Below are positions 24,616 through 61,760 of a DNA stretch of 64,000 bases, one piece after another. Position numbers and translations under genes: made by a program. The notes beneath the pieces are model-generated. The model saw only the letters and a list, made by a program, of their open reading frames with translations, did not search any database and was not told where the DNA came from. The stretch covers positions 124,001-188,000 of the forward strand of contig JAQOOI010000076.1 in the NCBI GenBank assembly GCA_028554645.1, read 5' to 3'. This DNA comes from Omphalotus guepiniiformis. Lineage: Eukaryota; Basidiomycota; Agaricomycetes; Agaricales; Omphalotaceae. The stretch's first letter is position 1. Each line of letters opens with the position of its first letter.

Positions 24616-25025
24616 ACGACGGTCAATGCACTTTGGCTGACGTCGACTCGATACACTGTCAGCTTTTCGTACGCCGTTCAGGACTTTTTTGTAGTGTCTT
24701 CATGTAACTTTGAAAGGATTTGTACAATATGATGTGATTCTTAGTAACTCAACAAAACCTTGAACGATCAGACATCAGAATAGTATCCTTATTATACAAG
24801 GTACACAACTCGCGCTACATCATGATCACCATGGGCCACCCTTTGCTCGCAAGGCCACCTCTTCTTCTAATTGCTCTCCGTATGCTTTCACGATGAAAAT
24901 ACCCCCTGCAAAGAAAAGATCAAACGTGTCGCGACGTCAAAAAAAGCAACGAACTTACAAATCTCCATTAACCATACAAAAACAAAAACCCCGACCATAA
25001 CCCCCTTCACAATTTCCTCTCCTTA
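24616..25025. other. Intergenic region left of the 18.9-kb interval
   Basis: Contains the 3' flank of the DM9 gene and an A/C-rich stretch (24900-25010). No gene seen. Confidence 0.5.
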
Positions 25026-25050
25026 TGAGGGTCCCCGCCGGACAAAAATA
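25026..25050 (+). repeat. Left terminal inverted repeat
   Basis: 25-bp sequence starting TGAGGGTCCCC and ending CCGGACAAAAATA. It matches the reverse complement of 43860-43884 with two mismatches. Confidence 0.75.
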
Positions 25051-25090
25051 ATGGTGATTTGAAAGCAGGTTTTTCGTTTTGGCTCAGGGC

Positions 25091-25258
25091 TTTGATTTCG
25101 GACTTGGTCTTTGATTTCGGTTTCGGCTTTCGATTTCGGACTTGGTCTTTAGATTTCGGTTTCGGCTTTCGATTTCGGACTTGGTCTCTGATTTCGGTTT
25201 CGGCTTTCGATTTCGGACTTGGTCTCTGATTTCGGCTTTGGCTTTCGATTTCGGACTG
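25091..25258 (-). repeat. Left subterminal minisatellite
   Basis: Four tandem units of about 38 bp, each containing GGACTTGGTCT, GATTTCGG and TTTCGGCTTTCG, with few differences. The motifs are shared with the right-end array at 43520-43840 in opposite orientation. Such subterminal repeats often bind transposase. The minus strand happens to be open through the array but low in complexity, so I do not call a gene. Confidence 0.8.
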
Positions 25259-25492
25259 AGCTTTCAGTGTTAGCATTTCCTTTCAATTCTGCACCTTATT
25301 CTCATTGTCAGAAGGTGATACAGACATCGTAGTCTTATTGATAAAGGCATAAAGCACTGTACATAACATGTTTTTACCAGCATACAATAGAGTGAAAAGC
25401 AGCAGAAGCATAGTGAGCGTCATCGTAGCATAAGAGGGGCATTAGCGAAAAATGTGCAGACCCAGTGCAGCAGTAGGAAAAAAGAACCCAAG

Positions 25493-28400
25493 TCACTCAG
25501 CACCAAACTCGCATTCTCTCAGGGCATCTCCAAACCAGATATCAAAGGGAGTGTTGGTTGATAACTGGCTAGGGCAGCAGTCTCCATTGAGGTAGTAGGT
25601 GTCGGGCTGGAGGACCACTTCGAGTTTAAAAAAGCATGTGCGGAAAATCAGATCTGCGTCTGTTGTAGGAACTTCATAAAAATCAATCTGATGCCACTGG
25701 GTCAGCAAGAATAAACGAAGGAAAAAGAAAGAAAGAAAAGCACCGAAAATTTGCTGGGAAGAGCTCCAGGAGCAGGCAAATACCGACTACCAGTAATAGC
25801 ATGTAGAAACACTTTGCAGTTAGCGAGGCTCTTGTGAAGAAACCTTAGAAAGCACGCGAGCCACTTGGTCTCTTGATCAGACCTAGTGGTTGTGATACTA
25901 TTGTAGTCCACCCGAGCAGCTATGTCCCTCCAGTCCAGAATGTGACGCCCAGACCAGATTGTGGCCAGAAGAGAAGCAAGAGTGATGCCAGCACTCTCTA
26001 GCGTAGATTTTATATCCACCGAATGGGCCATCATACCATCGCGGAATGCTACTAGAATGTATAGTTGGCTTTCTTCAAGAGGTCGCGGCAGTTTGAAAAG
26101 TGCACTTAGTCGGAGCTTTGTTGTCAAGTTTGCAATCTCGGAATCATGCATGTTCTGCACACAATTAATCTAAAGATTAAAGGAAATGAATATTTGCAAA
26201 ACAATAGCAGAAAGAAGCAGCAACTTGCACTGATGTCACCAATGTACTCATATATGAGATGCATTGGATCTCCTTGAACACTGACGTCCCATCTTCCAGC
26301 ACCCTCTGTTCTTGGTCTTGGTGGCCATTTCGCCAAGCGCTCAGAAAGAGAAGGGCATACTACTTCTAGAAAGGGCCCATCCTCCATTATCGACTTTATG
26401 CTGTCACCCATCGCTGCTCTCAGAAACATTGGCGAAAGAAAGATTGGATCAAGACCCCAGAGTAAGGCAGTGTAGGCGTAGAAGCCGACTCCTTTGAAGA
26501 ACTGCTGCACAGTGGCTTTCTCCTCGAAAATATCTGGATCTTCAATCGCAGGCGTCAAATACCCATCGTCGGTGAGCTGCTGCCACATTTCTGTTTTGCT
26601 GATGATAATGTCTTCGATCTTGCAAAATACAGTTCTCCAAACTCCATGTCCAGTCGCAGTGGAATTTGATTCCAAAGTACTTGAAAGTCAAACTAAGTAC
26701 GAGAGCATGCGCACTAAAAGATACTCACATTCGAATTTCCCTGCATGTGTCTGGAAGGAAAAAAAATCTCGGCTCCAAGTTTTGAATCTCCATATCAGGT
26801 GGGGTCCTGGGTAATTGGGAGCTGTTACCGAAAGCATGAAAGCAGCTCCACAAATATTCAGCGATTTGGGATATAGAAGATCCTTTGATTGATAGTGTTT
26901 GCATATTTGATAGTGAAGGACCATAAAGCATCGCACTTGAAGATCGCCAGCTAGAGGCGACTTCTCCACTAATTCGCCTTTCCAAGTAGTGGGAAGAAAT
27001 AGTGTGCTCATCCACACTAAAATAGTTTATCGAAAAACCATCAGCAAGAATAGTGGGAGCAGTAGAAGCAATCGGTGCAGCGAGGGTAGTGGAAGCGAGG
27101 GTAGTGGAAGCAATTGGTGCAGCGAGGATAGTGGGAGCAGTGGAAGCAATTGATGCAGCGAGGGTAGTGGAAGCGAGGGTAGTGGAAGCAATTGGTGCAG
27201 CGAGGATAGTGGGTGCAGTGGAAGCAATTGATGCAGCGAGGGTAGTGGAAGCGAGGGTAGTGGAAGCAATTGGTGCAGCGAGGATAGTGGGAGCAGTGGA
27301 AGCAATTGATGCAGCGAGGGTAGTGGAAGCGAGGGTAGTGGAAGCAATTGGTGCAGCGAGGATAGTGGGAGCAGTGGAAGCAATTGATGCAGCGAGGGTA
27401 GTGGAAGCGATAGGTGCAGCGAGGATAGTGGGAGCAATGGAAGCGATCGGTGCAGCAAGGGTAGTGGAAGCGAGGGTAGTGGAAGCGATAGGTGCAGTGA
27501 GGATAGTGGGAGCAATGGAAGCGATCGGTGCAGCAAGGGTAGTGGAAGCAGTGGAAGTAATTGGTGCAGCAAGGGTGCCCAATGCAGCAGAAGTAGCAGT
27601 TGAATCTGGGCTCAGCAGCAGAGTGCGAGGGCTATTTAGTGTATGAATAGCAGGCGAGGTTGGTATAGAAGGTGGCATGGGTTCTAGGAGGTTTAGAATT
27701 GAGGAATCTGGTGAGGGTGACGAGTCGAAGAAAAGAGGTCTATGCACTGCGGAAGGGCCACCCTCAGATAAATCTGAGATTGCTGCACCACTTGCTCGTT
27801 TCTTATCATGTGTATTAGTAATTGTGCAAGACTCAGCATAGCTCAAAAAACCTACTGGACAATAGCCGTCCCAGCACATCTGCTCAAAATGGTCTTCTGA
27901 CAGTTCATTCAGGCTGTTCATGTCCTGATCATCGTAAAATCCCTCCCATAGTCTTGAACCTAGGCAAAGATGGTGGTTGTTACCGTTGACTTCTATTTGC
28001 CCAGCAATGCAGCAGTTGGTCGGTCCTAACAATCTATTAGTTTGAGACAAATAACAACTTATACAAATGCACCTACCGATAATCACAAGGCAAACATCCT
28101 CACCAACCGAGCTATAGCGTTTAGCAGACCGTGCTAAATCTTTCCATGTGACACCATCGGGATTTTTGCTCGGATTGAGAATTGGGCTTGAACTACTTCG
28201 CGAAGTCATGGAACAGGTATACACTGTCCAGCGACGCTCTCCTATTCCAGCTGCCAGTGTACCATTCAGGTTGGTGAATTGGAGATTGTGAGCACCCATG
28301 TGGCTACTGAGCAGCTCATCGACACAAGGAGCAATTCTGACTGCATGACGGAAGGTGTCTTGCACTGTGAAGTGCAAATGATGTCTGTCGGCTCTTAGCA

Positions 28401-29513
28401 GAAAATAATGCTGCTTTGCTGTTGCAGGTGAGCGCATCACACCGTTTGGGAAACCAAATGGCATATCATCGTACACTTTTGCTGGCTAGTAAGCAAAATC
28501 CGACTTGATTAGTCGGTAGCAATAAATGAAAAGGTCAAGCTCTCACAGGATAGGGGTGAATAACAAAGTGAACTGTAAGACTTGAAGAACTGGGAACTTT
28601 AGATCTAGGTCCTTGCCGAAAATGCCTGCCACTAGAGTGGTTGGATGTGCCAATAGCAAGGCTCAAAGGTGAGTGAGTATCACTGAGGCCAGCTGCACTG
28701 GAAGCACTTCGAGCACGGTCCCTTGAATATTGATGATCTTCTCGATTGCGACCAGCCTCTCTGTGACCACTTATGGTAGCAGAGCTACCTGAGCTGAAAG
28801 CAGGAGCTACCGATGTAGAAATAGGCGAGCTCCCAAAGCGTGGTGCCTGAGTGAGAGAGTGTGATGCCCCATAACCAGGAGGCGAAACATACGGGGAAGG
28901 AGATAGAGAAGGCTGCGATGAAAATAGTGAGGCTTGCGATGAGGATAAATTATATTGCAATGAAGAGTGTGAAGGCGAAGGGAGAAGTGCAGATTGAGAA
29001 GAGCGTGGAGCTGAAGCACGAAGCAATGATTGAGAAGAATGTGGAGATGAAGCATGAAGTATGGATTGAGAAGAGCCTGGGGGTAAAGCATGAATCGCAG
29101 ATTGAGAAGAACTTGAAGAGGTTGCTTGAAGAGGTTGCAAACTGGTATTAGGACTCGGAGATGCTGCATGCATATAATATGGTCGCTGGCAGTTGCAGCA
29201 AATAGTTTGACCACGCTGAGAGTGGTCACTCTATTCAAAAAAACTCAATGAAAAATTAAAGCATGGTGCAAAAAATGCAACACACCGACGAGAACATTGA
29301 ATTGCTTCCTAGGCAACTGCGACTCTCTAGAAATTGACGTGCAGGGGAAACATGAGTGGATTCTGCATGTCCACAGTAGCATATATTACTAAATAACTAG
29401 AGTGTGTCATCAGTAGAACAACGCAAGGAAAATCGGCACAAACTCACTTCATTTGGATCACAAGTAAAAGTAGTGCATCGATTAATAGCAGGGCATTGGT
29501 TGCAGAAAGACAT
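25493..29513 (-). CDS. HECT-like E3 ubiquitin-ligase domain protein (1212 aa)
   Basis: Eight exons: 29513-29448, 29396-29286, 29230-28547, 28485-28077, 28025-26729, 26679-26229, 26169-25744, 25687-25493. The N-terminus is Cys-rich (MSFCNQCPAINRC, CYCGHAES, TICCNCQRPYYM), a probable zinc-binding head, followed by a Ser/Gln/Pro-rich low-complexity stretch. Then comes a folded block (VYDDMPFGFPNGVMR) and a 78-bp minisatellite encoding an Ala/Thr/Ile-rich repeat. The C-terminal 300 residues resemble a HECT domain: FLHAITGSRYLPAPG, then FRTCFFKLEV where Cys sits in the position of the catalytic thioester Cys. Intron 6 (26170-26228) is GC-AG. Real ligase activity is not proven, because the family is divergent. 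It lies next to the left TIR. Confidence 0.65.
27040..27590. repeat. Coding 78-bp minisatellite in the HECT-like gene
   Basis: Unit starts recur at 27082, 27160, 27238, 27316 and 27394, exactly 78 bp apart, followed by shorter variant units to about 27590. Each unit encodes 26 residues with STTLA, STAPTILAAPIA and AASIA elements. Because 78 is a multiple of three, copy-number changes keep the frame open. The array lies in exon 5. Confidence 0.92.
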
Positions 29514-31411
29514 TTGAATTAAATCTTGGCAATTATATGAGTTTAATAAAAAGAACAGTGCAAACTGACTCTTAGCGTACTGTAATATTTAGAGAATAAA
29601 AATCTGCAACAAATAGCGATTAGTGAACTAGAATTGCAGAATGAGTAGAAAAACCTACCAGTCGTTGCAAATAACAAATCTAGCAATGCAAATTATATGC
29701 AGAAAGCAGGGGAAAGAGCAAGAAAAACGAAATCGAGTGAAAATGTTGGTGAAGATTCAAAATGGCAATCGTCAAAGCCAGACCACGCTGTCCCAAAAGA
29801 AACCTCATTACATAATGCAAGCTTGCAAATGTAGAACTCGTGAAAGAGATACTGATGAACCAGTATTCTAAAACAAACTTTAGGTAAATGAAGTCCACGG
29901 TGAATACACAGTCATTCTCTTCAGCAACTGCTCCTGGCCCTTCTGACCCTGCTCTTTCTTCATCTTACAATTCCACAGTGTCAGATCGGCCAACGTCAAG
30001 AGATTGGCCAGCGTCAGCGAGACCTTCACCTTTGAATGGTGAGAGGTTGCATTCATCGGCTCAGGCACTATGGTCGCTGCAGCACTCCAAATGTGCTCCT
30101 ACTTGGTGCACTTCTCGAGGTCAGCGAGAAAAAAGACCAGAGTGCAGTGCAGTGCCAAGCTCAGCAAAGAAGACACCTAGTCTTCTTGTGGCGTGAAGGC
30201 AGGAGACACCAAGTCTCAGCAGCAAAACACACAAAAACACCAAGTCTTTATGCTGCGATCCAAGCCAATGTTTTGATAACTTTTGTAAGGCCAAGGTGGG
30301 GGAGGTATGCTGTGAGGGCATGCGAGCACTTAAGCAGGAAAGGGGTGAAGGTGGGGAGCAGATGAGTGAGACCTAATAAAAACAAAAAAGCAGGAGCAAA
30401 GTCAGAAAACAAATTGAGAAAACCAAAAATACACATACTGAGATTCTTCGTTCTTCTCTTTGCACCTGAATTGAGCTGCCGATGACAATGCTCAGTGCCA
30501 CCTGCAAAGCCCAAACATGGCAATCAACATGCACTTCATTTGAACGACTGGGTGGAAACAAAAGACTACATCGCCACACGTGGTCCATTGTTGTGGAGGG
30601 AAGAGAAGGTAAAAGGTGCCGAAGTGTACCACTCAAATATAGAGATGATAGCGAGAGTTTACGGGGCTAAGAAAACAAAATCCAGGAATGAGCTGAGAAA
30701 ACAAACTGAGAAAAAAAAAACATACTGAGAATCCTTAGGAGCTGCTGGCGACGACTCTCATATCAACTGCAAAGCCCAGCCAGACTTGAGTAGATGTTCG
30801 GCAGTGGTCCTGAGGTCAGGTCCACATTAGAACAGCTCGCAATCCCACTACTTGTGCTCCTGAGGTCAGGTTCACAAAGTAGCTTGAATTACGATCAACT
30901 TGAGGTCAGGTTCACCGAGTACCTTGAGGTACACCAGTAAATGTTCGGCAGTGGTCCTGAGGTCAGGTCCACATTAGAACACCTCACAATCTCACTACTT
31001 GTGCTCCTGAGGTCAGGTTCACAAAGTAGCTTGAATACCAGTCAACATGGAGGTCAGTGGTCCCTACCCAAATGACCATTCCTCACCTGCAACACCAAAG
31101 AGTTGTAGGGGACACCCACTACAGTCAATGCGTGTGCAGGATGGGGGCAGTCAAAGGGCTAGGAGCTGAGCGATCAATTGTTGTGGTGGTTGCGAGCCTA
31201 AAGACATGTGGAAGTCAGTAAACGAGAATTTCAACGATCGCAATTGTACATGTTTACTTACTTAGTCATGCTCACGTGCACTTTCCGCTTTCAGGTGCAG
31301 GTGCAGACTAGCCCGCGTTTTCACACCAATTGGGAACTATGCATGGATTACACTTTCTCCGTACAACAACAACGCACCAAAGCCAGCACCGACAAGTCCT
31401 CGTTAGAACGT
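29514..31411. other. Repeat-rich region between HECT-like gene and membrane-protein gene
   Basis: No supported gene. It contains a diverged local duplication (about 30390-30500 versus 30680-30780, sharing AGAAAACAAA..GAGAAAA, ACATACTGAGA and TGCAAAGCCCA) and the tandem array at 30794-31050. Several short frames on both strands do not resemble known proteins. Confidence 0.5.
30794..31050. repeat. 147-bp tandem repeat with internal GAGGTCAGGTTCAC motif
   Basis: The sequence ATGTTCGGCAGTGGTCCTGA begins at 30794 and again at 30941, giving a 147-bp period for nearly two units. A 15-bp motif TGAGGTCAGG(T/T)(T/C)CAC recurs at about 30810, 30861, 30899, 30957 and 31007. Confidence 0.85.
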
Positions 31412-32482
31412 TCATACTAATATCACCGCACCGCTCTCCATAGCGTCGTTTCCTCCCCCGACCCCACCCACTCCCTCCGCCCCAGCATTGCGTTTCGGAC
31501 TCAAACCCCCTCCACCACCTCCTCTAACAATCCTATCAGGATCAAAATTCCCATCAAACGCATCCATATCATCAAACCTCCTCTTCCTCCTAATCCACCA
31601 AAACACTCCAATAATCAAAATCATCAACCCTCCCAATCCACCTACGATCCCACCTACAATCGCCCCCGTATGCGATGAAGATGAACTCTGACCGTTGCCG
31701 TTGCCGGAATTGTTGGAAGAGGAGGAAGAGGCGGTTATTGTGGCTCCGGCTGGTAGGACTGATTCGACAGTAACGATTGTGGTGAATGCTACTCCGTTTG
31801 ATGTTCCGCTGCGTAAGAACGTCAGAACGTAAACACACACGCACGCGATTCGAATGCTTACATAGAAGTACTCTCAGTCGACAACGTAGAAGCCTGCGTC
31901 AACACACTCGTACTCTCACTCTCACTCACACTCCCACTCGTACTCCCACTCCCACTCGGCGTAATTTGACTGCTCCCACTCCCATTTACCGACCCTTGCG
32001 ATTCCGAAGTCCCACCATCACTCGCACTCTGACTCGCGGCGCACTGAGTCGTAGACGTATCACTTGACGTCGTAGTAGACGTCGTACTCGTGGTCGAAGT
32101 TCACGCTGAAGGTGGTGTTGGTGTGGGCGTAGGCGTTGGGGTAGTAATCCGTATCATCCTCCCTTGATCTCTTCGCGGGCTGCTCAGAGAATCCAGAGAG
32201 TCCAGACTCCGAATCGAAGCAGCATTTCAAAGGGTTCGAGCGAGTGTCGTCGGGATCAGCTTGTCCTTTAGTGGATGTAGTCGTTACCGCTGTTGTCGAG
32301 CCAGATCCCGAAGACCTGCTGCTCAGACATGGTTTGTGGCATATCTGACTGGAGCCAAAAGGCGATGGTTCGACGCTGGCTTTATCAACACTCAGGCTGG
32401 ACGTCTGACCATCACGAGAAATATGTTGCGGACTCCTCTTGAAAACCGTAAATGTGAGCGGGTCCGACCACCTGTATCGCTC
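31412..32482 (-). CDS. Ser/Thr-rich single-pass membrane protein, 5' end unresolved
   Basis: Three exons are consistent in phase: 32482-32105, 32043-31862, 31808-31412. The product has a Ser/Thr-rich outer part (SGSGSTTAVTTTSTKG, later SESESTSVLTQASTLS), one transmembrane segment (GAIVGGIVGGLGGLMILIIG) followed by a basic stop-transfer (WWIRRKRR), and a Gly-rich tail. This is the plan of the large basidiomycete SKG6-like surface-protein class. No start Met or signal peptide is found. The frame is closed upstream by an in-frame TAG at 32483-32485, beyond which 73 more codons are open (32486-32704). It is either a broken gene or one with an undetected intron. Confidence 0.5.
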
Positions 32483-32675
32483 CTAGGGCGGACTCTGTAG
32501 TGCCTCCTTCATTTCCTCGCCTTCCTCCGACCGCCTTTCCACCGCCGCTTTCTTCACTCCAAGCGTATCCGGACATCTGATAGAACTTGACCCAAAGCTA
32601 TCAAGCTGGTAAAAATCCGTGGACTTGCTCGCTATTCTCAAACCGAATCCCATACTAAAAACAGAACATACGAAA

Positions 32676-34095
32676 TCAGCACCTCTTTCGGACGTCAGCA
32701 TCAAGGATACACAACACTGACATTGATATCACACGAAACCGACTTCCTCTTCTTATCACTTTCCAACTTTTTCTCGTCAACCCTTCGAATCGCATTATAA
32801 AGCGTCTCGCCTGTAGTCTTGCCCAAAACTTCATGATGGGCAAAGTGAGGTTATCGTCGAGCGAGCCAAGGTCTACAAAGCAGCACAGATTACTCAACAA
32901 GACGAACCAAAACATGTCGATGACGGGACGAACCTAGAGCCTCTGCAACACCACTGACTAGCCCCGCACAAGCAGCTATCAAAATGAAACCCAACCACCC
33001 ACCAAATCCACCGAACGCTCCATCAACACCAGGGCGAACACCACCATCCCACCACCAGGTTACATCATTTGTCTGGGGGCGCATAGGCGTCATCCAGCTC
33101 CGGAACCCAACGGCGATACACGCGCCAGTAATCGAGGCAGCGATAAAGCCTGCGAGGGACTTTCTTGGCGCAAGGGGTAGTCGAAGAACTGGTGTGCGCG
33201 AAGGCAAACGTGGAGTCATAGAACCCCACATACGACCGATGGTCGAGGCGGCTGTGTCGGCCCAGGAAAGACTGTACTAAGGAAGGGTGAGCAAAGGTTT
33301 TTGAAATGAGATAGGGTTACTCGCATTAAGATAGCTACAGTCGCGACGTCGAGAGGGTAAAACGTAAGCGCGAAATTGACGCCTATGATATACCATATAA
33401 CCCCGTTCGTTGTCTCCTAGAGCCGTGAGTCAGAAAAGGGCTCGCGGGGGGTACAGAAAAGAAGTTTGAACTACCTTCTCGCTCTCTCGCATGAGAAATC
33501 CTAGGAAGCGTTCATAGACGCGCGCGAAGGGAGGGTATCCAAGGCGGAGAAAATCTGCAGGCGCGATGACTGTCAGAGCGCTCCAAAGCACGTAAACTAC
33601 AGTTTGAGGAGTTCCTTCGGAAAGATACAGATATATAGTAAAGAAACCTAGCGACGGCGAAGAAAAAACGGGATGCGTGAGGTACTGGAATGAGGAAACG
33701 AAATCAACAACGTACCAATAGATGAATGCAACACTTTTCTAGGAATTTCCCAGTCAATCTTCTTTTTGGCAAGGTACCCAGCCCCAGCCTGTTCGTCGCG
33801 TCCGCGATACACGTCCATCTGTGAACGCGCAAACTCGATGATCATATCTTCACAACAAACAACGATGCGTACGATTTATACGGTGTAATATCCGTCACCG
33901 TATTCTTCGGTTGAGATGGTGGAGGCGATGCTGGATCTGCAAGCTGCGAAAACGAATTGCCTTCGCCGTCATCGTCGGCGTCATCATCCGATGTAAGAGA
34001 GGCCCACGAACGCCAGTATTTGGCAAAGGTGCTCGGGGCAAAGGAAGGTCTGTTTCGTCGTCGAATTCTTCTTCGATTGTCGGTTTTCTGGACAT
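32676..34095 (-). CDS. DGK1: DGK1-like CTP-dependent diacylglycerol kinase
   Basis: Phase-consistent exons are 33818-33716, 33647-33475, 33416-33325, 33271-32934 and 32872 onward. DGK1 phosphorylates diacylglycerol with CTP in the ER/nuclear membrane. Conserved parts are IDWEIPRKVLHSSIGF, TPQTVVYVLWSALTVIAPAD, NFALTFYPLDVATVAILILS, WADTAASTIGRMWG, LPLAPRKSLAGF, VSGVAEALDLGSLDDNLTLP. To get ILILSWADTAAS the intron 33272-33324 must be GC-AG (donor GCGAGT). Two ends are odd. The N-terminal frame from MSRKPTIEEEFDDETD must shift to reach DDDADDDGEGNSFSQ, and after LTLPI the reading runs 50 atypical residues to the stop at 32676. It may be 3'-rearranged. Confidence 0.7.
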
Positions 34096-35040
34096 GATGA
34101 TGAGCAGAAGCAAACAGAGCTGGAGCTTCCCACGAAAACCAGACGCGCTATTGTTTCTTGAACGCCGACCGCGACGACAGGATGCGTCTCTCGTCGACGC
34201 TGCCTACGACTACGACATTATGCATGTGAGTCTCTATTTTCATAGTTTGGTTTGTGTACTGATAAACCTTGCAGATGTATATGGACATTCTTATTATGTC
34301 TTCTTCACATCGTCAAAGCTGCCGGAAATGAAACTCATCCAATCCACTTCTTTCCCGTTTTGCACCAGAACCAACTTTTCCATCCTTCACTTGACATCTG
34401 CGTTCGTAGCAGGTATCATCGGTTGTTTCCTCGCACAGTACGCTATATGCGGTTCTGGATGCTTCAGTCCTGCCAGCCGGACTTCAAGCTCGAGTTCGGG
34501 CTCGTAAGCAGGCTTGCTAGCGAAACCTATCCCTGGCTCGACAGAAGTTCACCCGTTCCCACCTACTTCGCCCATCAACGTTTTTCCTTCTCTTTTCCCG
34601 ACCAACGTCGGTTATCCAGGTGGAACAGGCTTCACAGTAAGTGTTCTGTCTTGTTCGTACCTTCGACGGCTCGACTCATGATCTATATAGCCCTTCCCTA
34701 TCTCTCCATGTAACTCTCCAATAGCTACCATTAACCTCCTACGAACCACGTCTTGAAGTCGCCTTACATCTGCACTCATCCGGGAGCACTTGACGAAGCG
34801 TAAGACCGAAGCATTCACTGGCACTTCGTCCTGGTATCGTGTGTTGCATTCACCCAGTCCCCATAATGTAGGACTTGACGCATATGTAATATAGGTGCAT
34901 CAGCAACATGTTAACCTCGCGCACCGTCGCCTGGCGCGTATGACCAAACCTGTACCGATGTTAGGAAACACCTTCAACTTGACCGCGACTGAGCTTTGGT
35001 TGAAGGTAGAACAATGGGCTCGCGAATGGTGCGTTAGATA
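34094..35040 (+). pseudogene. Possible histidine-acid-phosphatase (phytase) N-terminal remnant
   Basis: The plus-strand frame contains a membrane-anchor-like segment FVAGIIGCFLAQYAIC, a Ser-rich linker, an in-frame TAA at 34505-34507, and then PINVFPSLFPTNVGYPGGTG and, in a shifted frame, LPLTSYEPR. Membrane-anchored basidiomycete acid phosphatases have this order before their RHG catalytic motif. I find no RHGARYP motif downstream and frames break repeatedly, so this is at most a degraded piece. The identification rests on weak resemblance. Confidence 0.25.
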
Positions 35041-35842
35041 GTTTCTGAGATGACAAAATCGTCTGAAATTGTATTTTTAAAGGGCCCAATTTCGATCTTT
35101 TATGTTATAAGACTTACTATATATTACAACACCCACTATGTATAACAACACCCACTACTAACATCTAAAATACATTGATCTCTTCAATATCTGTTGTACT
35201 CTCTAAAACATGTAAGAATTACTATCATTTCTTGGGATATAATAAGATTCTAAGACTATAATATAGGGGATCTTGATATAACACTCTTAAAATCAAGACA
35301 TATTATTGTTTTCTTAGTTATAACAAATACTATATGGAATAATCCTTTATATGTTTGTGTGGGTTTTGCTGATGACTGCCTTCAAAATCAATTCATCCAG
35401 TTTTTCACATCACAGGTTTTAATGTGCCATGAAATTGCAGTTCCTCACAGATTTGATGTGCTATGAAATGGACAGGCTTGTGTTTCTAGCTCAAGCAGTG
35501 TATGCAGTGCATTCATATCATATATATTTATGCTGCATCATTTCAAGGCAGTTGCATGTATACAAGCAGTACATCTATATACTTAGTTTTAAGCTGTGAT
35601 ATTTCAAGGCAGTACACAAGCAGTACATTCATATCATATACTTTCATGCTGTGATATTTCAAGGCAGTACACAAGCAGTACATTCATATCATATACTTTC
35701 ATGCTGTGTTATTTCAAGGCAGTTTACAGGCAGTATTCAGCAGTGCCACTTCAAAGGCAGTTATGGTATGGCCCTCATGTTCTGAGTATAAAGCCTGGAT
35801 GATTTCAAAAGTAAAAGGGCAACTCACAGCTCATCTCTAGCA
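35041..35842. other. AT-rich region with 55-bp tandem repeats
   Basis: No gene. From about 35540 to 35740 a unit containing ATTTCAAGGCAGTACACAAG and CATATACTTTCATGCTGTG repeats every 55 bp (clear starts at 35596, 35651 and 35706), with a more decayed copy before it. Confidence 0.75.
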
Positions 35843-37403
35843 ATGTCAGCACGCCCATCTATCTATTTCAAATTCTCCCAAGACTTTCTTTCTATCAACT
35901 CATCTGATGCTGGTGAGCTTCGCAGACTGATAGCAACTCCAACAGAGACTTTGTACCACAACAATCATCCTTCTGCACTTACTGTAGCTCTTTATCCCCA
36001 TGTTGTGCACACATATGCAGATGATCCTTCTCCGTCATTGATTATCCAGGACTTTTTGTCTTGGCTAAACAAAAACATCTCACAGGTTCCTGAAGTCATC
36101 CAGGGTGCTCTACATGCTCGTAAGATCCGTCAAAGTGCAGATCCCAAGCGGCAATTTGTCGATTCACTTGGCTTGAATCCAAACTCTATCCGCGGTCAGG
36201 AGCGCAGGCGCAAAATACACAAGTCTCTTACTAAAATTGAGGTAGAGACAGGTGTGAATTATCCCACACCCGGACACTGGCTCATAGAAACTGATTCAAT
36301 TGAAAACCGATGGAAAAAACATCTTGAGGAGCGGAACTTTGACAAGCGAGTTCATCCAAAGGATATTCTTCGCATTGATTGGTCAAAAATCAAACATGTG
36401 GTGCAGCCTGATGAAAGTGTGGAATTCCGGACCAAAGATGGAGAGTCTAGTTTCAGAGTCTAAATATATTGTCTAATCTATTCATAGGAGAGCTTGTAGC
36501 AATAGTCATCAGGGATTTTTGCAGTGATAAGGAAGTGGTAGAGCAAGTCAACAGGCTTGTACTAGAGTACACTGGAGCCACAAAGAGTGTTAGAGTGAGT
36601 TCTGTTTTGTTTTCTTAAAAACTATGCATTTATTTTGTTTTTAGTATGAAGATGCAGGGAATATTGTCATTAGTGGTTGGTCTGCTGGTGCGCGCAGCAG
36701 AGGCTGCTTTGATTGGGTCCGCAACTTTACTGGCCGGAAATACAGTGAAGAGGAGAAAGAGTCATTGCAGTATAAGGTAGCCTCAGCATTTGCGCTGTTT
36801 TGGAATTTGTCAGTCGATGTGCTTCCGGAAGAAGTAATTGAAGACTTCCGAAGCCTGGGTCGGCGGTATTATCCACCTATGGATACTGGGATACACACTG
36901 GTGGTGAGCAAGAGATGTTTACCATAGAGTACTATGGTGAAAAGCTCAGCTTTCACAATGCGGAAATGGCACCAGTGCAGGGTGTGTGTGCTGTGAATTA
37001 TGCCCGGTAAGTTGGTGCACATATTTTTGTTTCTTTGAAACTAATGTGTTCTTTTAGTCATGTACACAAAGAGAATCAGCCTCATGACTGGGCTTCTGCA
37101 TGGACCACAGCGCGGCTCTCCAATATTGGCGGTGGACATTTTTTCTTGTCAGAGTATGGGATCTGCATTAAGGCAGCAGCCAACTCAGTGGTATTGTGGA
37201 AGCCCAGGCTTTTCCATGCCACAAGTTTGCAGGATATTGAGCCTACATTACCTTATTACCTGCCTGATTGCATTGTGCAATCTGGAATAGCTATAGTTAC
37301 TTCTCCTAGATTGCCTAGTGCACTAGAGAAGTTGTTAAAGACTCATCCTTCAGTAGAAGAAGTGGAAGAGGAAGGAAGCAGGTGTATGGTGCATGATGAC
37401 TAG
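35843..37403 (+). CDS. Agaricomycete-expanded protein with oxygenase-like C-terminal domain
   Basis: Four coding blocks: 35843 to about 36462, 36488-36594, 36645-37006, 37058-37403. The last three join cleanly. The C-terminal part has HNAEMAPVQGVCAVNYAR, HVHKENQPHDWASAW, GGGHFFLSEYGICI and WKPRLFHATSLQ. The spacing of His/Asp, a glycine strand and a second His resembles a double-stranded beta-helix 2OG-Fe(II) oxygenase, but this is inference. The family is abundant in mushroom genomes and often transposon-associated, as I recall it. The first junction is unresolved: the only nearby donor GTCTAA and the acceptor at 36487 do not keep phase, so the gene may be mutated. Confidence 0.5.
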
Positions 37404-39936
37404 TTTAACTCTGAATTGTATTTGTTGTTGCTTTCAGATCAATGTCAGTAGAAAAATATTATATTGGCTCTATTACTGGTTTTATTCACAAAAGCTGAAG
37501 TTGTGATTTGCATATCACCTTATTTCTTTTATCTCACTCCAACTTTCTATTAAAATGTTAGCACTTTTGCAATATTTCTACTAGCTAATAGACAATGTGA
37601 TAGTCAATGGTCAAGTAAGCAAAAGTCTTTAAACTCACAGGTTACTATTGGAACTCACTGCTCACTCAGCTGCTGCCAAACTATCAGGTATTCTTGATAC
37701 CTTCTGAATGAGAAGGAAGCTTAACTTCTACTTTCTACACCCAGCTAATATGAGGATTAGTGGATATGCAACAGTAGCAGATTTAGTATAAACTTGGCCA
37801 CCAGAATCAGAAGGCTAAAATAGATAACTAAACTCAAATACCCATTTTGAGGGCAGCTAAATCAATACACTCTTATAAGTGAGATACAATGAATTCAATA
37901 TCACAGAAAGGAGTATACAGGTATTATTAATAATAATTATATTTCTAAGGGATTATCAGAAGAATGTAAATAAAAAGGAAGATTACTAAAATCAAAGAAT
38001 TTACTTTTCTTGAACTCAAAAGGTGTCAAAGTTCAAAGATTTGAAGGCTTTAGGTCAGTTTCAAGCAGTAAAGATGCTATGCCTGAAATGATCTTCAAGT
38101 TAAACTACCAATTTCAAAAAGGTAGAATTATGTCTTAAAGTGTGTAATACTTTGGTATTCTACATTTGGTGCTACTGTGCATATTGCACAAATATAGACA
38201 TATAGAAATTGCACTTTACTTGGTTTCTAGAGTATAGTAAGAATCAATATAAAGCAATCAGGTTTTATTAGAACTTTTCTGAGGTCTGACATCTCATCAC
38301 ACTTTTCTCCTGCACTTATGCTCCCAATTTAGATTGTTATCTCACTTATTTTGCTATCACACATGAAGTGCATATAGGCAAGTATTTTTGTGATGAAGTA
38401 TTATAGCTGCTACCTCTTATCCAACACTTGACTCCACTTATCTTCTGCTATCATCCTTCAATAGTGTGAAACTACTAAGAGTTCTTAGTAATATCTGGAT
38501 AGGAAGGAAGCTTGACTTTTACTGCCTGCACCCAGATAATGTGAGTAAGTAAATATGTAAAGTTTGCAGATAGAGTACAACCTTGCACTGCTGGGGCCCA
38601 TAAATTTTTGGTGGCAAAGATGGGCTTGGCAAAAAGGAAGACAAATTTATTAGCTTATTTTTGAGAACACAAATATTACATTTTTGAGGCAAAAGATGCA
38701 GCAAAGATGCAGCATCTTTGCCAAGTCTTTTCAGATAAGTATGTAAGCTATTGCAAGGACTAGGGAAATCATTTTTGCCTGCAAAGATGAGGGTAAGTAT
38801 ATAAACTATTTTAGGAATAAAAGGAATCATTTTTGGGCACAAAGATTGAGGATAAAGATAACTCATTACAGAAATTAAAGGAATCATTTTTGCAAGAAAG
38901 GATGTGGATATTTGCTACATTAAACAGCAACATTCTTGCTCTTCAAGATACAAATACAGAGAATTAAAAACATTTTTGCTGTTAGTAATCTTAAAGAGCA
39001 AAAATGTTGCTTTATTGTAGCAAAAATCCACTTTCTTTCTTGCAAAAATGATTTCTTTTATCCCTGAAATAGTTCAATTACTTATCCTCATCTTCAGAGG
39101 CAAAAAATGATTCCCTTAATTTTTGCAATAGCTTACATACTTATCCTCAATTTTTGCCTGCAAAATTGTCACTTCTCATGGTGTATATATGTAAACATAT
39201 TGTCTAAAAAGATATGGCAAAGATGCCGCATCTTTCCCACATCTCTTGTACCAAAAATGAAATATCTGTACTATTAAAAATAAGCTGAAAAATTTGTCTT
39301 CCTTTTTGCCACGCCCATTTTTGCCATCAAATATTCATGGGCCCCAGCAGTGTTGGCTATCAGAATCAGGAGACTAAGATATATAACTAAACTCAAAGTC
39401 AGAACATAGAAACAACATACTGGACTTGAAAGAAATGAAGAACAAAAATAAACTTACTGGATAGCTAGAATTATATGCTCTTGCAAGAAATAGTAAATTT
39501 CAATATCACAGAAGAGAGGTATATAGGAACAGATATTTTTGAAGAGTTGCTAAGAGATGTAGAAAAGGAATTTAGTACTTCCATCTTCCCATCTGAGTAC
39601 TAACAGGTGTAGATAGAAGGTAGCAGGAGATTACTAAAATCAAAGGTTTAAACTCAATCAGGCACTAATTTATTTCAAAGGTTTTTTTAAAAAGTTCAGA
39701 GTGTATACTGATCTATGTCCAGTTTTTCCATTGCAAAGATTAAGCTTCAGAGATTAGAAATAGCATGCTGGCAAAGTAAGAGCTATCTGAGGTATATTAG
39801 ATATACTCTATTCAATAGATCACCTTAATTATTTTTTGTTGATAAGAGTTATACTAGCTAGCTGCATATATAAACTGAAAAAAGTGTCAGGTCTTTAGAT
39901 CACTTTTGTCTTCACTTTTTCTACTGCTTCATCAGA
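37404..39936. other. Non-coding region with diverged duplication and palindromic insertion
   Basis: No gene. Two diverged copies of one segment lie at about 37640-38030 and about 38430-39660; shared markers include GGAAGCTT(A/G)ACTT, CACCCAG(C/A)TAAT, ATAACTAAACTCAAA, TTCAATATCACAGAA and GATTACTAAAATCAAA. The second copy is interrupted by the palindromic element at 38586-39352. Confidence 0.65.
38586..39352. mobile_element. Palindromic MITE/foldback element with 3-bp target duplication
   Basis: 767-bp non-coding element beginning CACTGCTGGGGCCCAT and ending ATGGGCCCCAGCAGTG. Its two halves are inverted copies for nearly their whole length, with the centre near 38970. TTG flanks both ends (38583-38585 and 39353-39355). 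A paralogous copy of the target without the insertion at 37794-37796 has a single TTG, confirming insertion and duplication. A 3-bp duplication fits the PIF/Harbinger group, although TTG is not its usual TAA/TTA. Confidence 0.85.
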
Positions 39937-40913
39937 ATGCCAGAAATCACTACAGAGTACTGTCCACAATATTCCTACTATGTGGTGGATGATGTGATGA
40001 TTGATATCATCACTAGGGTGTTGCTGAGAGATGGGAGTTATGGGAATTCAGACTTACTACTTTTGAGAAAGAGCATCAACAAGCAGTGAGTAGGTTTCTT
40101 TTCTGCACTGGATTGAAGCTAAAATATTACCAGTTTATATCCTCTATTTTATGCTAGGCATATTATCAATTCTCCAACATATTTTTTCAGACTTTGCAGA
40201 TCTTTGATAAATTCTGCAGAACTTGCAGCATATATCAAGAATATCACATTCTATTTTCTATGGGCTCCTGCATGGTCAGATATTGATCAATTACTTAACT
40301 ATGAAGATGACTCGCAGCTTGCATTCAAGTTGCTTGAGCTCACATCCCAATATATCAGCCATTTCTATATCTGCACCGACATACTTCATTATTCACTATC
40401 TCAGACTCTATCTCAGAGCAGTATAGTGTTTTGATAGTGTTCCCTCATTTAGTTGAGCTATATGCTCCTATTGAGGTTGTGAATCCGGAACTTCTGATCC
40501 ATCGCGGCTTATCTTTCCAAAACATCAACTATCCCATATATAGGCAGCTCTGGCCTCAAGTTGAACGCCTCACTATTGTTTATCATTGTGATCCAGGAAC
40601 ATCTTATCTGCATGAGCAATTAGACTTTCGCTTTTTGCCCAAGCTTTCACATCTTTTCATGTGCCTGGATACTTTCACCTATGATGCAGCTTTTAACTTG
40701 GACACACTTCAATTTTACTCAGCACCTCTCCTTGTGATTATCAACCCATCAAATTTGCTATTCCCCTTGTCTCTTCAGATTCTTAATCTTTACCTGATGT
40801 TTTGGTTTTTGCTTGTAAAAGCCAAATACAGCCAGATTTCACCCATCTACTTAACCAGGAGCATTTTATTGAAGAAAGAAAGATGGATATTAGTGAGTTT
40901 CAATTTCCATTGA
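39937..40913 (+). pseudogene. F-box/LRR-like protein, probably frameshifted
   Basis: Exon 39937-40085 starts MPEITTEYCPQYSYYVVDDV and splices (GT-AG) to 40158 onward, giving FFRLCRSLINSAELAAYIKN and a leucine-patterned region. That frame stops at 40432-40434, while similar sequence continues in another frame (VFPHLVELYAPIEVV, ERLTIVYHCDPGTSYL, LPKLSHLFMCLDTFTYDA). At the break a short motif ATAGTGTT is repeated, consistent with a small duplication that shifted the frame. Leucine spacing resembles the F-box/LRR proteins that mushrooms encode in hundreds. Function unknown. Confidence 0.4.
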
Positions 40914-41208
40914 ATTTGAATAGATTATGGAAATTAGGACTCAAGGCCAGAAAATTGCAATTGTGATTTTTAAATATGAACAGTACTATATGCTCATTTT
41001 TTGCGCAGTCAAGTTGGACTATGATATGCTTTTGATTCTGATAAAACTCAAATAAAGATTGATATCTACAAACTTTCCTTTTTTGCAAAAATCTGTAAAA
41101 CATAACTGCACTTTGATACTTTTGGAAATGACTAGCTATATACGAGAAATTTAAATAGCTGACTGGAATCAAGATATCTTGCATATCCACATTTACTTTT
41201 ATTGCTTC

Positions 41209-43042
41209 ATGTCTATCACAGAAACTAGCCAACTTGCTGCTGTTACTCTACATGAAAAATTCAACAGAATGAAGGAGCAGGTATCACATGCATTGCAAAC
41301 ACAGCTGGGAAACTCTTTCCAACTGAGCATTGTCATGAGAGCCTGTCAGGCCTTGCTCAATGAATTTTTTCAGGTGTGTATTTTGCTTGATTATGAATAA
41401 ATTCAGATATCAAATTATATTTATATAGTATGCACATATGGTCGCAGAATGGGACTTCAGAATCTATAGTGGGTCTCTCCAGCAAATGATTCACGATGTA
41501 GAAGTTGCGCAGAACCGCTGTCCAGAACCACCAGCTCAGCCACCATTTGCAGTAGAAGAGCAGATTGTGTCATCATCTGGCCGCCGTGGTAGACCTCGCA
41601 AATACATTGATCCAGAAGCACTCTTAAAATTCACAAATGCTTCAAGAACTTCTCGCAATGAGATTGGATCTGTTTTTCATTGCAGTGGCCGGACAATTCG
41701 GAGGCGCTTAGTAGAACATGGATTTTCACCCGCTGGTCCTGCAGTATATGATACTATTGCACAAGCTGATGGAACTCTGATCAGACAATATCATCCTGGT
41801 CGCAGTAGTGACTTGGCTTTACTATCGGATCAAGAGTTAGATCAACTTGTGCATCAGATTCATGTACAATTTCCTTCTTTTGGAAGAAGAATGATTGATG
41901 GATATCTGCTGCAAATGGGATATCGAGTTCCCCGAAGTAAACTTCAGAATTCGTTTAGTCGAGTAGCTGGTCCAAGCACAAGATCATTTGCTCACCGGAG
42001 AATACCTCGTGCTCCATATTCAGTGCCTGGTCCAAACTCATTATGGCACCATGATGGGCAGCATGGTAGGTTATTCCTTCAAGACAAACTCAAATAGCTC
42101 TAATTTGGTGCAGGTCTTATCAAATACCGCATTGTAATCCATGCATTCATTGATGGATTTAGCCGATATCTACTTGGCATTCGCGCAAGTGATAATAATC
42201 GCTGCGAAACAACTTATGACTTATTTGAAGCTATATGTGATGTGCGCGGATATCCAAGCAGAGTTAGAGGTGATCATGGTACAGAAAATGTCATGGTAGC
42301 TGCTCGGATGAATGAGGTTCGAGGCCCTGGGCGCGGTTCATATATCTATGGAAAGTAAGTATTGTGTTTGTTTATATTATAGTGGGATTTACTCAATAAA
42401 ATCTATAGATCAGTCCATAATATCCGCATTGAGCGCCTTTGGGTTGATGTCACTTCTGCTTTTGGAAAAAAGTGGAAGAACTTTTTTGAAGACTTGGAAA
42501 TCAACCATGGTCTCAATATCAACAATGATGCCCATCTCTGGCTGCTTCACATTCTCTTTCTTCCTCGCATTAACCAAGATGCATATGATTTTATGCAGAC
42601 TTGGAACTTCCATACTTTGGGAAGCCAAACCAACACTTACCGATCTCCACATGTCATGTACACACTTGGAGCAGCTCAGATTGGTGATTACTCTATGCAT
42701 CTAGCACAGATCCCTCAAGATGATCCACACTTTGCAGACGGAGAATATGATCATTATGGAATTGATTGGAATGATCTTGATAATTCAAGATTGCGGGCAC
42801 ATCATCAGACTCAGCATCCAGATCAAGCTCAAGATAATCCATTTGATAGTGCAGTGCCAGAGCACATGAACCATGTGGAGGTTCCAGAAACTTCATGTCC
42901 TCTGTCTGAAGATACTGTGGATAGAATGGAAGCTCACTTGCGCAGCTTTCCCTTTTACAGTGGGATAGATGCTCAGTCTCACAAGGCTTTGTGGCTTGAA
43001 GCTATGAACTTTGCAAGACATGCAGCACAGAATAGAAATTAA
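41209..43042 (+). CDS. Integrase-type DDE transposase (558 aa), apparently intact
   Basis: Four exons: 41209-41373, 41429-42065, 42114-42354, 42409-43042, all GT-AG and in phase. The N-terminus is helical, then a helix-turn-helix (SSGRRGRPRKYIDPEALL; SRNEIGSVFHCSGRTIRRRL). The catalytic core is an rve-like RNase H fold: LWHHDGQHGLIKYRIVIHAF (first Asp), PSRVRGDHGTENVMVAARMN (second Asp), SVHNIRIERLWVDVTSAFG (Glu). The same block order, including H-x-D before the first strand and SVHNxRIERxW, is seen in integrase-core proteins of animal genomes. No stops or frameshifts, so it may be active. It lies 0.8 kb inside the right TIR. Confidence 0.85.
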
Positions 43043-43490
43043 TAGTATATTTTTCATTTATAAACATTAATTTGTATATAAATTGTGTGCACAAACTCTT
43101 CACAACTATCAACCCAGAAAGCACCAAGGTGATGGCATTAGTGAAGAAAGAAAGTTTGATATAAGAGGGAAAGTGAGCTTACCTCAGAAACCACCAGCAT
43201 GAATTTTCAAGGCCTAACACCTGCTTTGGCACAGTAAAACAAAAACTAGGAATTGAAATGAGAGGCAGAAATGAAACATGAAACATAGCATCAAAGGTCA
43301 TTGGCATGTCCAACACCCAAAGATGGCTGGAACCTAGCCAAGGCTCTTATTTCCAGCTTGGATCTCCTTCAAGAGAATTTCTGCAACTAGGTGTGTGGTG
43401 TACGCAAAGAAACAGCAGAGAGCTGTTGCGCCAGGCAATTTTGTAAGCATCTATACATATAAACAATGGTAAGCGCGCGGCTTTTGGGCA
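43043..43490. other. Region downstream of the transposase gene
   Basis: No gene seen. Probably the 3' UTR of the transposase gene followed by non-coding sequence leading into the right subterminal repeats. Confidence 0.5.
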
Positions 43491-43519
43491 CCCGTGGAAA
43501 AGTGCTGGGGTGGCCCTCA

Positions 43520-43840
43520 GGAAGCCGAAATAGAAACCGAAACCGAAATCGAAACTAGTGCCCGAAATCCAGCCGTGGTGTCCGAAATCGAAGCCGAAAC
43601 CGAAATCGAAACTAGTGCCCGAAATCCAGCCGTGGTGTCCGAAATCGAAGTCGAAACCGAAATCGAAACTAGTGCCCGAAATCCAGCCGTGGTGTCCGAA
43701 ATCGAAACCGAAATCGAAATCCAGCCGCGGTGTCCGAAATCAGAAAATACCCCTTCCCAAAGCCAAAACCGAATCCTAATCCAGCCGTGGTGTCCGAAAT
43801 CAGAAAATACCCCTTCCCAAATCCAAACCGAATTCTAATC
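43520..43840 (+). repeat. Right subterminal minisatellite
   Basis: Two repeat types. About three units of 57 bp contain CCGAAATCGAAAC, TAGTGCCCGAAATCCAGCC and GTGGTGTCCGAAATCGAA. They are followed by two units of 60 bp containing CCGAAATCAGAAAATACCCC. The CCGAAATC core is the inverse of the GATTTCGG core in the left array. Open frames through it are low-complexity (Glu/Thr/Ile) and not called as genes. Confidence 0.8.
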
Positions 43841-43859
43841 CCGCGCCTGTCGTGCCAAA

Positions 43860-43884
43860 TATTTTTGTCCGGTGAGGACCCTCA
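43860..43884 (-). repeat. Right terminal inverted repeat
   Basis: 25 bp reading TATTTTTGTCCGG then TGAGGACCCTCA; inverted match (two mismatches) to 25026-25050. Confidence 0.75.
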
Positions 43885-44863
43885 GACTAACTGGATGATA
43901 TAAGGCAGTTTTTGCTGTATAGTATCATGCGCTGTGAAAGATGAACGTTTTGCTGGGAACATGCTTGGACGAATCAAAGGTGCGTACGTATGTTTTTGAG
44001 CTGGATAATGGCTGCGACAGTAAGTAGTCCGCCTAGCCCTGTGCCTAAGATACTGATAATCTATACGGACAGGTTAGTTGCTACATGCTACAAGTATGAA
44101 AATGTACTCACAAAGACACCGAGCCTGACAGGTAGACAACAGCAAAACGTGCGCGATTGGACATACATTATTGCGGGAAGAGCTCGTGAATAAAGTTTCT
44201 TTCAGAAGTAGAGCTGCCTGAGCTGTAAAATGTGGGGGAAGGACCAGCCTATCGCGAAAACACATGAACCCGCGGTCGAGTTTATAAGGCGTACAGAGCC
44301 CATAGATACAAACGATGGCAGTGTACAGGCAGTGCTTTTCGGCCATGTCGTTACACGCAACAAAACCCTGCAACAGTATCAGGTATATGATATGGCAGTG
44401 TAGTACACAGTCCCCTTCTCCGTTGTTTGCGAAAGATGCGCGTCACGGTAACTTGGTGGAGTCGAAGTTCAAAATGAACTTGGAAATGGCTCCATAAGTC
44501 CCTGTAAACGAATGTTTTTGAAAACCGCAGGATAAGTATTGCTTAAGTTGGCCGGTGCATGCCGTGCGAGTGTGCTACATACACGAGGTGATGCCATGGA
44601 CTGATATAATATTATTGCAAGAATGAATGTCAGAATTACAGGAGTACGAGCTGACCGGCGATATAAATTATATGAATCCCGTACGATAGAGTCAGTATAT
44701 GGTACAGCATACGAAGCTACATGGAGTACATTGCATTGAAACACAGTCGATGAAGTCTGGGAGGGGAGCTTTTGCAGCTTTTATTCGTACATATATATCC
44801 AGGATTAGGCGTCGCGTTGCGGAGAACGATACTCATTCACCATCCAGGTGACAGCTTGCTTGA
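43885..44863. other. Intergenic region right of the 18.9-kb interval
   Basis: No supported gene. A minus-strand segment at 44744-44469 contains a hydrophobic stretch TPVILTFILAIILYQSMAS and could be a relic of a multi-pass membrane protein, but no continuous gene can be assembled. Confidence 0.35.
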
Positions 44864-50477: not shown

Positions 50478-52022
<1,545 letters not shown>

Positions 52023-60484: not shown

Positions 60485-61760
60485 TTAGACGGGGACACTG
60501 TAAGGTCGGGGGGGACCTTGAGCCTCGTCCGAGGGGAATGGTCTCCAGGTGCCTCCAACCCGTCGGTTAGCTGCCTGAGACGCGCCTTGCGGGGGCACAT
60601 ACGGTGTTGTTGTTGCAGCCCGCTCAAAGGTGGGTTCAGGAGTCGAAGAGGTCGTGACAGCAGCGCCGGCAGCCTCATAATCGAAGAATTCGTCTGAAGC
60701 AAAGCGAGTTTGTCCTTCTGAATATTCTAGGATTGGTGTGGCCTCGAGAAAGGACTGATCATTGGAGTCTAGCGCAAGACCGCTCAAATCCCAGTCCGTC
60801 ATATTGGGGAACTGGCTAGTGTCGAGCAGCTGCCCAAGATCGACATCCAAAGCTTGTCCGTTGAGCTCAGAAGGGTCGAAGTTTGACATTTGGAAGATCG
60901 ACGGATCGCCAGTTGCTGTGATGAGCGCTTGTATCGACTGGTCAAACTCGGCAGTGCCGTCAGTAGACATCCATGGCTGTTGGGGCAGGTTGAATTGGAG
61001 CATGTGCTGCAGTGTACGAGTAAGCAAACAACCACACCAGAAAATCCGCGTAAGAAAGATCTCTCACCTGGCCATCCGTCTCAGGCTCGTTGATCGAGGG
61101 CAGTCCAGGCCAAGTGACCGCGTCAGAGGGCACTTGCTGCTGCCAGTTGCTTGGACCAGCAATAGGCTGTTCAGGAAGGTCGAAAGAAGGCAATGACTGA
61201 GATTGAGGCACTGTAATCAATGACCCAGGATGGTACTGCAGTTGACTGCTCTCTTCTTGAGACTCTCCAGGAGACGAAGCGGCAGAGATTGGTGGCGATG
61301 GGCCACATGGACCATACGACAACGGCATGTCGGTTGGCACCGCAGAAGAGGGGTGGGCAGAAATGAGAGAAGGTATATAAGAAGACGCGTAAGGGGAGGC
61401 CCGAACGCGTTTCCTGCTAGCTTTACTGTCCCTCTCCTTTTCTAAACGCTTCTGCTCCCTGAGACGCTCCTTCTCCTCCTTTTTCATGGGCGCGAAACGA
61501 TAATCAGGATATGCCATCTGATGCTCTTGCTTCTTGGCCTCTGCAAGACGGTCATACAGTTCACGAGTCTCCGGTGGGGCACTCTGCCACAAGTTAGAGA
61601 TTTCCTTGGAGATGGTGGCTTGTGTTTTGCGGGTACCATCGTCGTCGTATTTGGATACTTGTTTGTTCATATCTGAACGAAAAAGAATCCATGCGTTAGG
61701 AGGACGAGGGATTTTTCTGTTCATGACAGATGCCGGCTGGGTACGATCAGGACCAGGCAT
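60485..61760 (-). CDS. HMG-box transcription factor (MATA_HMG type)
   Basis: Two exons: 61760-61068 and 61006-60485; 404 aa. The HMG box lies near the N-terminus: KIPRPPNAWILFRSDMNKQV, then ATISKEISNLWQSAPPETRE and KKQEHQMAYPDYRFAPMKKE. The PRPPNAWILFR start is typical of fungal sequence-specific HMG factors of the mating-type/Ste11/Rox1 group. A basic stretch (KEEKERLREQKRLEKERDSK) and a Ser/Pro/Gln-rich region follow. The second exon encodes an acidic C-terminus (DFDPSELNGQ-like, LSGLALDSNDQSFLEATP) that may activate transcription. There is no homeodomain pair nearby, so this is not the mating-type locus itself. Confidence 0.85.

Follow-up and report, generated by a model that had tools for sequence, protein, structure and literature searches.

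Does the 18.9-kb interval between two inverted repeats at positions 25026 and 43884 of a stretch of Omphalotus guepiniiformis DNA move as a single transposon, or is it a piece of host chromosome that two transposons happen to flank? The window, meaning the whole stretch of 64,000 nucleotides that was analysed, is C77:124001-188000 of an assembly of 42.5 Mb in 80 contigs, and coordinates without a contig refer to it. An earlier note, made from the sequence alone, had suggested an undescribed giant DNA transposon with cargo. The inverted ends that it described are real, with 23 of 25 positions matching between 25026-25050 and 43860-43884, and they form the sole 25-bp inverted pair in the window with at most two mismatches and a spacing of 5–30 kb (three block shuffles gave 0, 0 and 0). 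The mirrored minisatellites inside both ends are equally real: the core GATTTCGG occurs nine times in the window, all within 25094-25254, and its reverse complement occurs 13 times, 12 of them within 43543-43801, against about 0.9 occurrences expected per strand. The borders of the element, drawn partly from a second copy on contig C41, are as follows.

25024..43886, no strand: whole transposon copy, 18,863 bp, a length that assumes a right end 2 bases past the inverted repeat (C41 homology over 25024-43882; end comparison)
25024..25050, plus strand: left terminal inverted repeat (TIR) and terminal TA (pattern search, C41 alignment, end comparison)
43860..43886, minus strand: right TIR (pattern search, end comparison)
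25087..25265, plus strand: left subterminal array with the core (repeat detection, core count)
43525..43841, minus strand: right subterminal array with the mirrored core (repeat detection, core count)

A search of the whole genome for the TIR pattern with at most three mismatches returned four matches (reversed control 0). Two are the ends in the window and two lie on C41, at 150510 (+) and 197009 (-), and together they form two inward-facing pairs. The ends can be called polar because in C41 too the CCCCGCC-type and CCTCACC-type ends face inward. The C41 element, on another contig, spans 150508-197035 (46,528 bp), has the same inner gene order as the window copy and TA..TA termini (TAGCAGGG...CCCTCATA), and is flanked on both sides by a perfect 6-bp target-site duplication (TSD), CAGCTC, so that one of the two copies has a TSD. 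Of the 18,863 bp in the window copy, 15,616 align with it, the main blocks being 93–99% identical; the aligned blocks run from 25024 to 43882 and stop at the TIRs, beyond which the flanks differ. Since the two copies share ends, gene order and most of their sequence, and the C41 copy has TA..TA termini and a 6-bp TSD, the whole unit has moved. The cargo-bearing giant transposon of the earlier note is thereby supported: the second locus with both ends far apart that it had proposed to look for exists, and repeats both ends, their polarity and the inner order.

The same observations bear on two other explanations. If two short insertions of one family flanked an ordinary host island containing DGK1, a picture that the earlier note had itself raised, then the missing TSD of the window copy and the resemblance of part of the inner sequence to host genes would be accounted for, but the same ends and inner order would hardly recur at the unrelated C41 site with a perfect TSD. 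The genome search also found no TIR close to its own partner, contrary to the suggestion that each might belong to a shorter element, and the host-like sequence inside is a patchwork drawn from several contigs. This explanation is ruled out by the C41 copy, its TSD and the TIR pairing, and we consider it extremely improbable. Segmental duplication of one region, with the ends as chance borders, would produce the long high-identity blocks common to the two contigs, but those borders coincide with TIRs; the 6-bp TSD at C41 and the unrelated flanks rule it out, and it is if anything less credible still.

The interval is therefore quite probably a single copy of a large DNA transposon of IS3EU type with its own transposase gene. 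Complete IS3EU families are described as always having TA..TA termini and usually 6-bp TSDs (PMC10045372; for this and all papers below, the statements apply to the sections cited here). Both hallmarks are present in the C41 copy, whereas the window copy has TA at its left end only. Several points weigh against this reading. Comparison of the ends confirms that the window copy has no matching TSD, as had been noticed before, and its right end reads TC on the outward strand where TA is expected; our guess is that one side later underwent a deletion or an exchange, which could explain this. The TIR pattern search found only two full copies in the assembly, and the assignment, while it fits, is based on termini, TSD length and transposase type. 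No empty site was found in the assembly, each of the four flanks matching itself only.

The transposase gene lies near the right end.

41429..43042, plus strand: DDE transposase of integrase type (PF24764), introns 42066-42113 and 42355-42408 (Pfam, homologues)

It matches the PF24764 integrase core (E=6.4e-21), shows DD34E spacing by eye and likely has an additional upstream exon. The frame is open in both copies, which differ by four synonymous and two nonsynonymous changes, so that the earlier description of an intact-looking DDE transposase near one end holds. Among the best 120 of 657 homologues, those with names are mostly from Agaricomycetes. Transposase-like sequence is present at about 18 loci in the genome, both copies included (46 matches, our grouping). 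Around four other transposase loci no TA..TA with a 6-bp TSD was found within 7–10 kb of each, and the L051 matches of this search belong to a 379-bp inverted repeat that is present in several copies in a relic region on C43. Contigs C6, C12 and C21 share more than 8 kb around one transposase, and their comparison gave no element borders.

The greater length of the C41 element is largely due to nested insertions. C41:161493-182855 (L006 to L008) is a 21.4-kb insert with a 7-bp TSD (CGCTACT) and ends CAAAAG...TTACAG; it is read as a KDZ transposon from its transposase match (PF18758, 1.8e-42), has a Copia frame inside, and interrupts a captured host fragment whose donor on C63 shows the uninterrupted sequence. 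C41:189133-190978 is a 1.85-kb repeat resembling a long terminal repeat (LTR), with TCGC on both sides by eye and matches of 97–99% at no fewer than 39 other places. If these two insertions are subtracted, about 23.3 kb of the C41 element remain. A nested insertion is found in the window copy as well.

38586..39352, no strand: nested miniature inverted-repeat transposable element (MITE), 767 bp, ends CACTG..CAGTG, 3-bp TSD TTG (absent from the C41 copy)

Copies related to this MITE, which we take to be EnSpm/CACTA-like, are present on several contigs.

The cargo of the window copy occupies 32142-34945, between a HECT-like and a dioxygenase-like gene, and consists of nine aligned pieces from seven donor loci. 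The pieces are 38–932 bp long and 90–100% identical to donors elsewhere in the genome, leaving 24 bp and 4 bp with no assigned donor.

32142..32597, minus strand: fragment of C16:240071-240525, 92.5%, donor beside a fungal kinase frame
32622..32833, plus strand: fragment of C65:2637776-2637986, 96.2%, donor beside an IMS-polymerase frame
32833..33764, minus strand (frame on the minus strand): DGK1-like fragment, 93.9% to C35:33959-34880 and 93.7% to C31:32756-33680
33769..34341, minus strand: fragment of C76:920263-919564 in two pieces (100%, 90.0%), 93 bp of the donor skipped
34341..34627, plus strand: fragment of C65:2612161-2612447, 95.1%, resembling a phosphatase by eye but without a Pfam match
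34628..34790, minus strand: fragment of C76:1380766-1380407 in two pieces (93.7%, 97.4%), donor frame AMP-binding-like, shared with C41
34789..34945, minus strand: fragment of C61:39843-39688, 93.6%, donor next to an aspartyl protease frame, shared with C41

What had been read as host-type genes between the ends must thus be corrected to fragments of several loci. The DGK1-like gene is host-derived, as had been proposed, but it is a truncated captured fragment with insertions and deletions relative to fuller copies on C35 and C31. Its CTP_transf_1 match (E=0.023, 15 bits) falls below the cut-off of 24, and the donor gene, its exons joined by eye, has no Pfam match; the name, based on that match, is our assumption. 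Donor frames extend beyond the captured part, as with a 512-amino-acid frame in L063. The Pfam scan covered 15 donor frames, three C41 cargo frames and two flank frames. Four donor frames exceeded the cut-off (fungal kinase, IMS polymerase, aspartyl protease and DAO oxidoreductase), with domains that lie beside or between captured pieces and none fully inside; a match to AMP-binding missed its cut-off by 0.1 bit, PUF_NOP9 was below cut-off in two frames, and the remaining 13 of the 20 had no Pfam match.

The two copies share only some of this cargo. C41 has parts of the C76:920k, C76:1380k and C61 pieces (88–95%) and lacks the C16:240k piece, both C65 pieces and the DGK1-like piece. Private to C41 are 2 kb of C16:790k (91.1%), three C74 pieces (97–98%) placed inside the C76:1380k piece, about 3 kb of C63 (98–99%) and 1.3 kb of C22 (95.3%). 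Shared and copy-specific fragments together imply that captures took place before and after the copies parted, or that some were lost from one copy. Judged from the sequences, host-fragment capture has happened repeatedly. As a separate observation, an open frame at 33842-34507 (+) joins two fragments of different donors at 34341 and could encode a chimeric protein; the stop that ends it is absent from the donor.

How might such pieces have been acquired? The transposase would recognise the TIRs and the subterminal arrays, the latter being possible binding sites, and would move the unit by cut-and-paste. Breaks inside the element would be repaired by copying ectopic host DNA, a gap filling with template switching of the kind reported for animal Pack-TIRs (PMC8277862), and the captures would be carried along by later transposition. 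We lean modestly towards gap filling with template switching as the capture mechanism. Skips within one donor are seen for C76:920k, C76:1380k and C74. Microhomology summed over ten junctions free of filler is 13 bp against 6.7 +/- 3.0 expected (P=0.037), a sum that leaves out five junctions with 1–24 bp of filler; the signal is weak and single junctions are unremarkable (lowest P 0.049), a further point on the adverse side. A genomic DNA source is favoured because the DGK1-like fragment spans donor exons together with the sequence between them and because the C76:1380k skip lies inside one continuous donor frame, and capture of complementary DNA was rejected on these grounds. By eye, the 93-bp C76:920k skip starts with GT and ends with AG on one strand, the gene there being on the other.

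The main rival holds that the transposon is real and its cargo passive filler, the product of chance insertions and deletions that built up in a tolerant spot as the element aged and had nothing to do with transposition. Truncated captured pieces with insertions and deletions, and the weak microhomology, would suit such neutral filling. But some captures are present in both copies and therefore travelled with the element, all donor matches found fall in one interval, and the transposase and dioxygenase-like frames stay open; we regard passive filling as a serious possibility, if a somewhat doubtful one.

Gap filling remains our preferred reading of the cargo, on whose right side lies the dioxygenase-like gene.

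35843..37403, plus strand: dioxygenase-like gene, candidate PE-type TET/JBP, exons 35843-36416, 36488-36594, 36645-37006 and 37058-37403 (our splice model)

This gene is open in both copies, with five synonymous and five nonsynonymous differences. The window protein contains HKE and LFHAT, matching the HxE and downstream histidine hallmark, and among eight homologues HxE is found in seven, HxD in one and the later histidine in all. Homologues are present in Collybiopsis confluens, presumably the same species as Gymnopus confluens. HxE is described as the hallmark of PE-type TET/JBP enzymes, PE-type proteins are reported in G. confluens, and recognition of TET/JBP needed structure comparison in that work as well (PMC12730594). 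The gene could instead encode another double-psi or helix transposon protein with HxE...H by chance. The family has neither a Pfam match nor a meaningful PDB sequence match, which also tells against our overall interpretation, and the HxD homologue would agree with a chance motif; yet the conservation of the motif, the homologues in a species with reported PE-type proteins (if the two names are synonyms) and a position and orientation relative to the transposase like those in some TET-bearing IS3EU families make this alternative rather unlikely. A TET/JBP-like protein, if it is truly one, would counter methylation silencing. Dioxygenase-like sequence is found at about 20 genomic loci, some of them fragments and both copies included (45 matches, our grouping). 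The family is possibly carried by several kinds of transposon.

To the left of the cargo lie the following frames.

25496..28464, minus strand: HECT-like gene, exon blocks 25496-25699, 25741-26169, 26229-26684, 26716-27045 and 27772-28464 (weak HECT match)
27042-27574, minus strand: coding minisatellite between HECT-like exon blocks (repeat detection)
28535..29230, minus strand: Ser/Pro-rich open frame upstream of the HECT-like gene (no Pfam match)
31192..32142, minus strand: segment common to C41, with a 153-amino-acid frame and transmembrane stretch at 31412-31873 (Mid2-like only below cut-off)

The gene region that the earlier note placed near the left end exists, but its HECT match is weak: one exon frame matches PF00632 at E=0.0073 and 16.4 bits against a cut-off of 23.9, which again counts against the reading, and with that match under the curated cut-off the gene is called no more than HECT-like. 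A cysteine in RTCF context stands in the last exon by eye. In the genome the joined protein matches only the two element copies and a C57 scrap (12 matches), and no homologue at E<=1e-3 was found among the 7998 best candidates. The Ser/Pro-rich frame is possibly the first part of this gene. No donor for 31192-32142 was found in the genome. Two further candidates for capture, C19:1171963-1172086 (which adjoins an LTR-like repeat) and C57:41641-41809, were rejected, as the sequence that both resemble is the HECT-like gene region, and they are interpreted as relics. On C43, 38801-41611 and 48805-49348 (L051, L052) form a partial relic of the same transposon family in which the equivalent of window 31339 lies 17 bp from that of 37471, the cargo site and dioxygenase-like gene being missing, through either deletion or descent from an older form without them. 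No TIR core was found in these two C43 pieces.

Elsewhere in the window, 4033-5379 is part of a high-copy LTR-like repeat also present inside the C41 element, 50992-51822 (-) is an AAA-ATPase frame that by eye looks like a regulatory subunit of the proteasome, and 60960-61931 (-) is an open frame with an HMG-box-like stretch, RPPNAWILFRSDMN (by eye). An Rfam scan of 20000-48000 gave no match, and a transfer RNA scan of the window found none.

Among known systems, Starship giant transposons are likewise large fungal elements with cargo; they use a tyrosine recombinase, in place of which the present element has a DDE transposase and TIRs. The IS3EU superfamily and gene capture are each already known, so that the earlier word 'undescribed' is only partly right: the termini, TSD length and transposase type fit a known superfamily, and the element is unusual in its size and in recurrent multi-donor capture while keeping a transposase gene. 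The closest likeness is to the TET-bearing IS3EU elements of rust fungi (Kojima 2025, PMC12730594), which have in common with it TA..TA termini, 6-bp TSDs, TIRs, an integrase-type DDE transposase and a TET/JBP-like gene between the transposase and an oppositely oriented third gene. In all TET-bearing families described there the third gene is an alpha-kinase; here a HECT-like gene (-) replaces it, long arrays stand at both ends, and host fragments come from several donors. In the lists cited there, Pucciniomycetes and Tuber indicum have IS3EU with TET/JBP; the entries for Agaricomycotina belong to other transposon groups only.

Pack-TYPE elements (Pack-MULE, Pack-CACTA) are likewise TIR elements carrying pieces of host genes, but they are defined as non-autonomous and come from plants (PMC8903248), whereas here, in a fungus, the transposase frame is open in both copies, which would place the element outside that definition. 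Animal Pack-TIRs (PMC8277862) share the TIRs, host fillers, breakpoint microhomology and gap-filling model; here several donors lie side by side, in part common to two transposed copies. The gene-carrying Helitrons of Pleurotus ostreatus are DNA transposons of a basidiomycete as well; some of them are putatively autonomous, and a filler-DNA model is discussed for them, but they are rolling-circle elements without TIR-type ends, and no intact Helitron with P. ostreatus gene fragments is recorded in the cited sections (PMC4289320). A plant review leaves fungi unmentioned in the part cited (PMC13317346). The open-access literature searched yielded no IS3EU element with recurrent multi-donor capture and none joined with HECT, and among the titles listed there none concerned HECT genes in DNA transposons.

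It may tentatively be proposed, with more reserve than for the element itself, that the IS3EU elements of mushroom-type fungi include giants that capture genes. Such elements would hold their transposase, a dioxygenase that counters methylation and a HECT-like gene in constant positions, would repeatedly load host pieces into one travelling internal site, and would in this way serve as carriers of cargo within Basidiomycota. Capture by TIR transposons has been documented mostly for short plant elements that lack a transposase and for animal Pack-TIRs. The captures described here are layered and sit in an element that still has a transposase gene; they are 88–100% identical to donors still in the genome and are in part common to the two transposed copies. 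The order, donors, junctions and timing of capture are directly readable in a fungus, and a candidate DNA-demethylating enzyme may be linked with a large cargo-bearing transposon.

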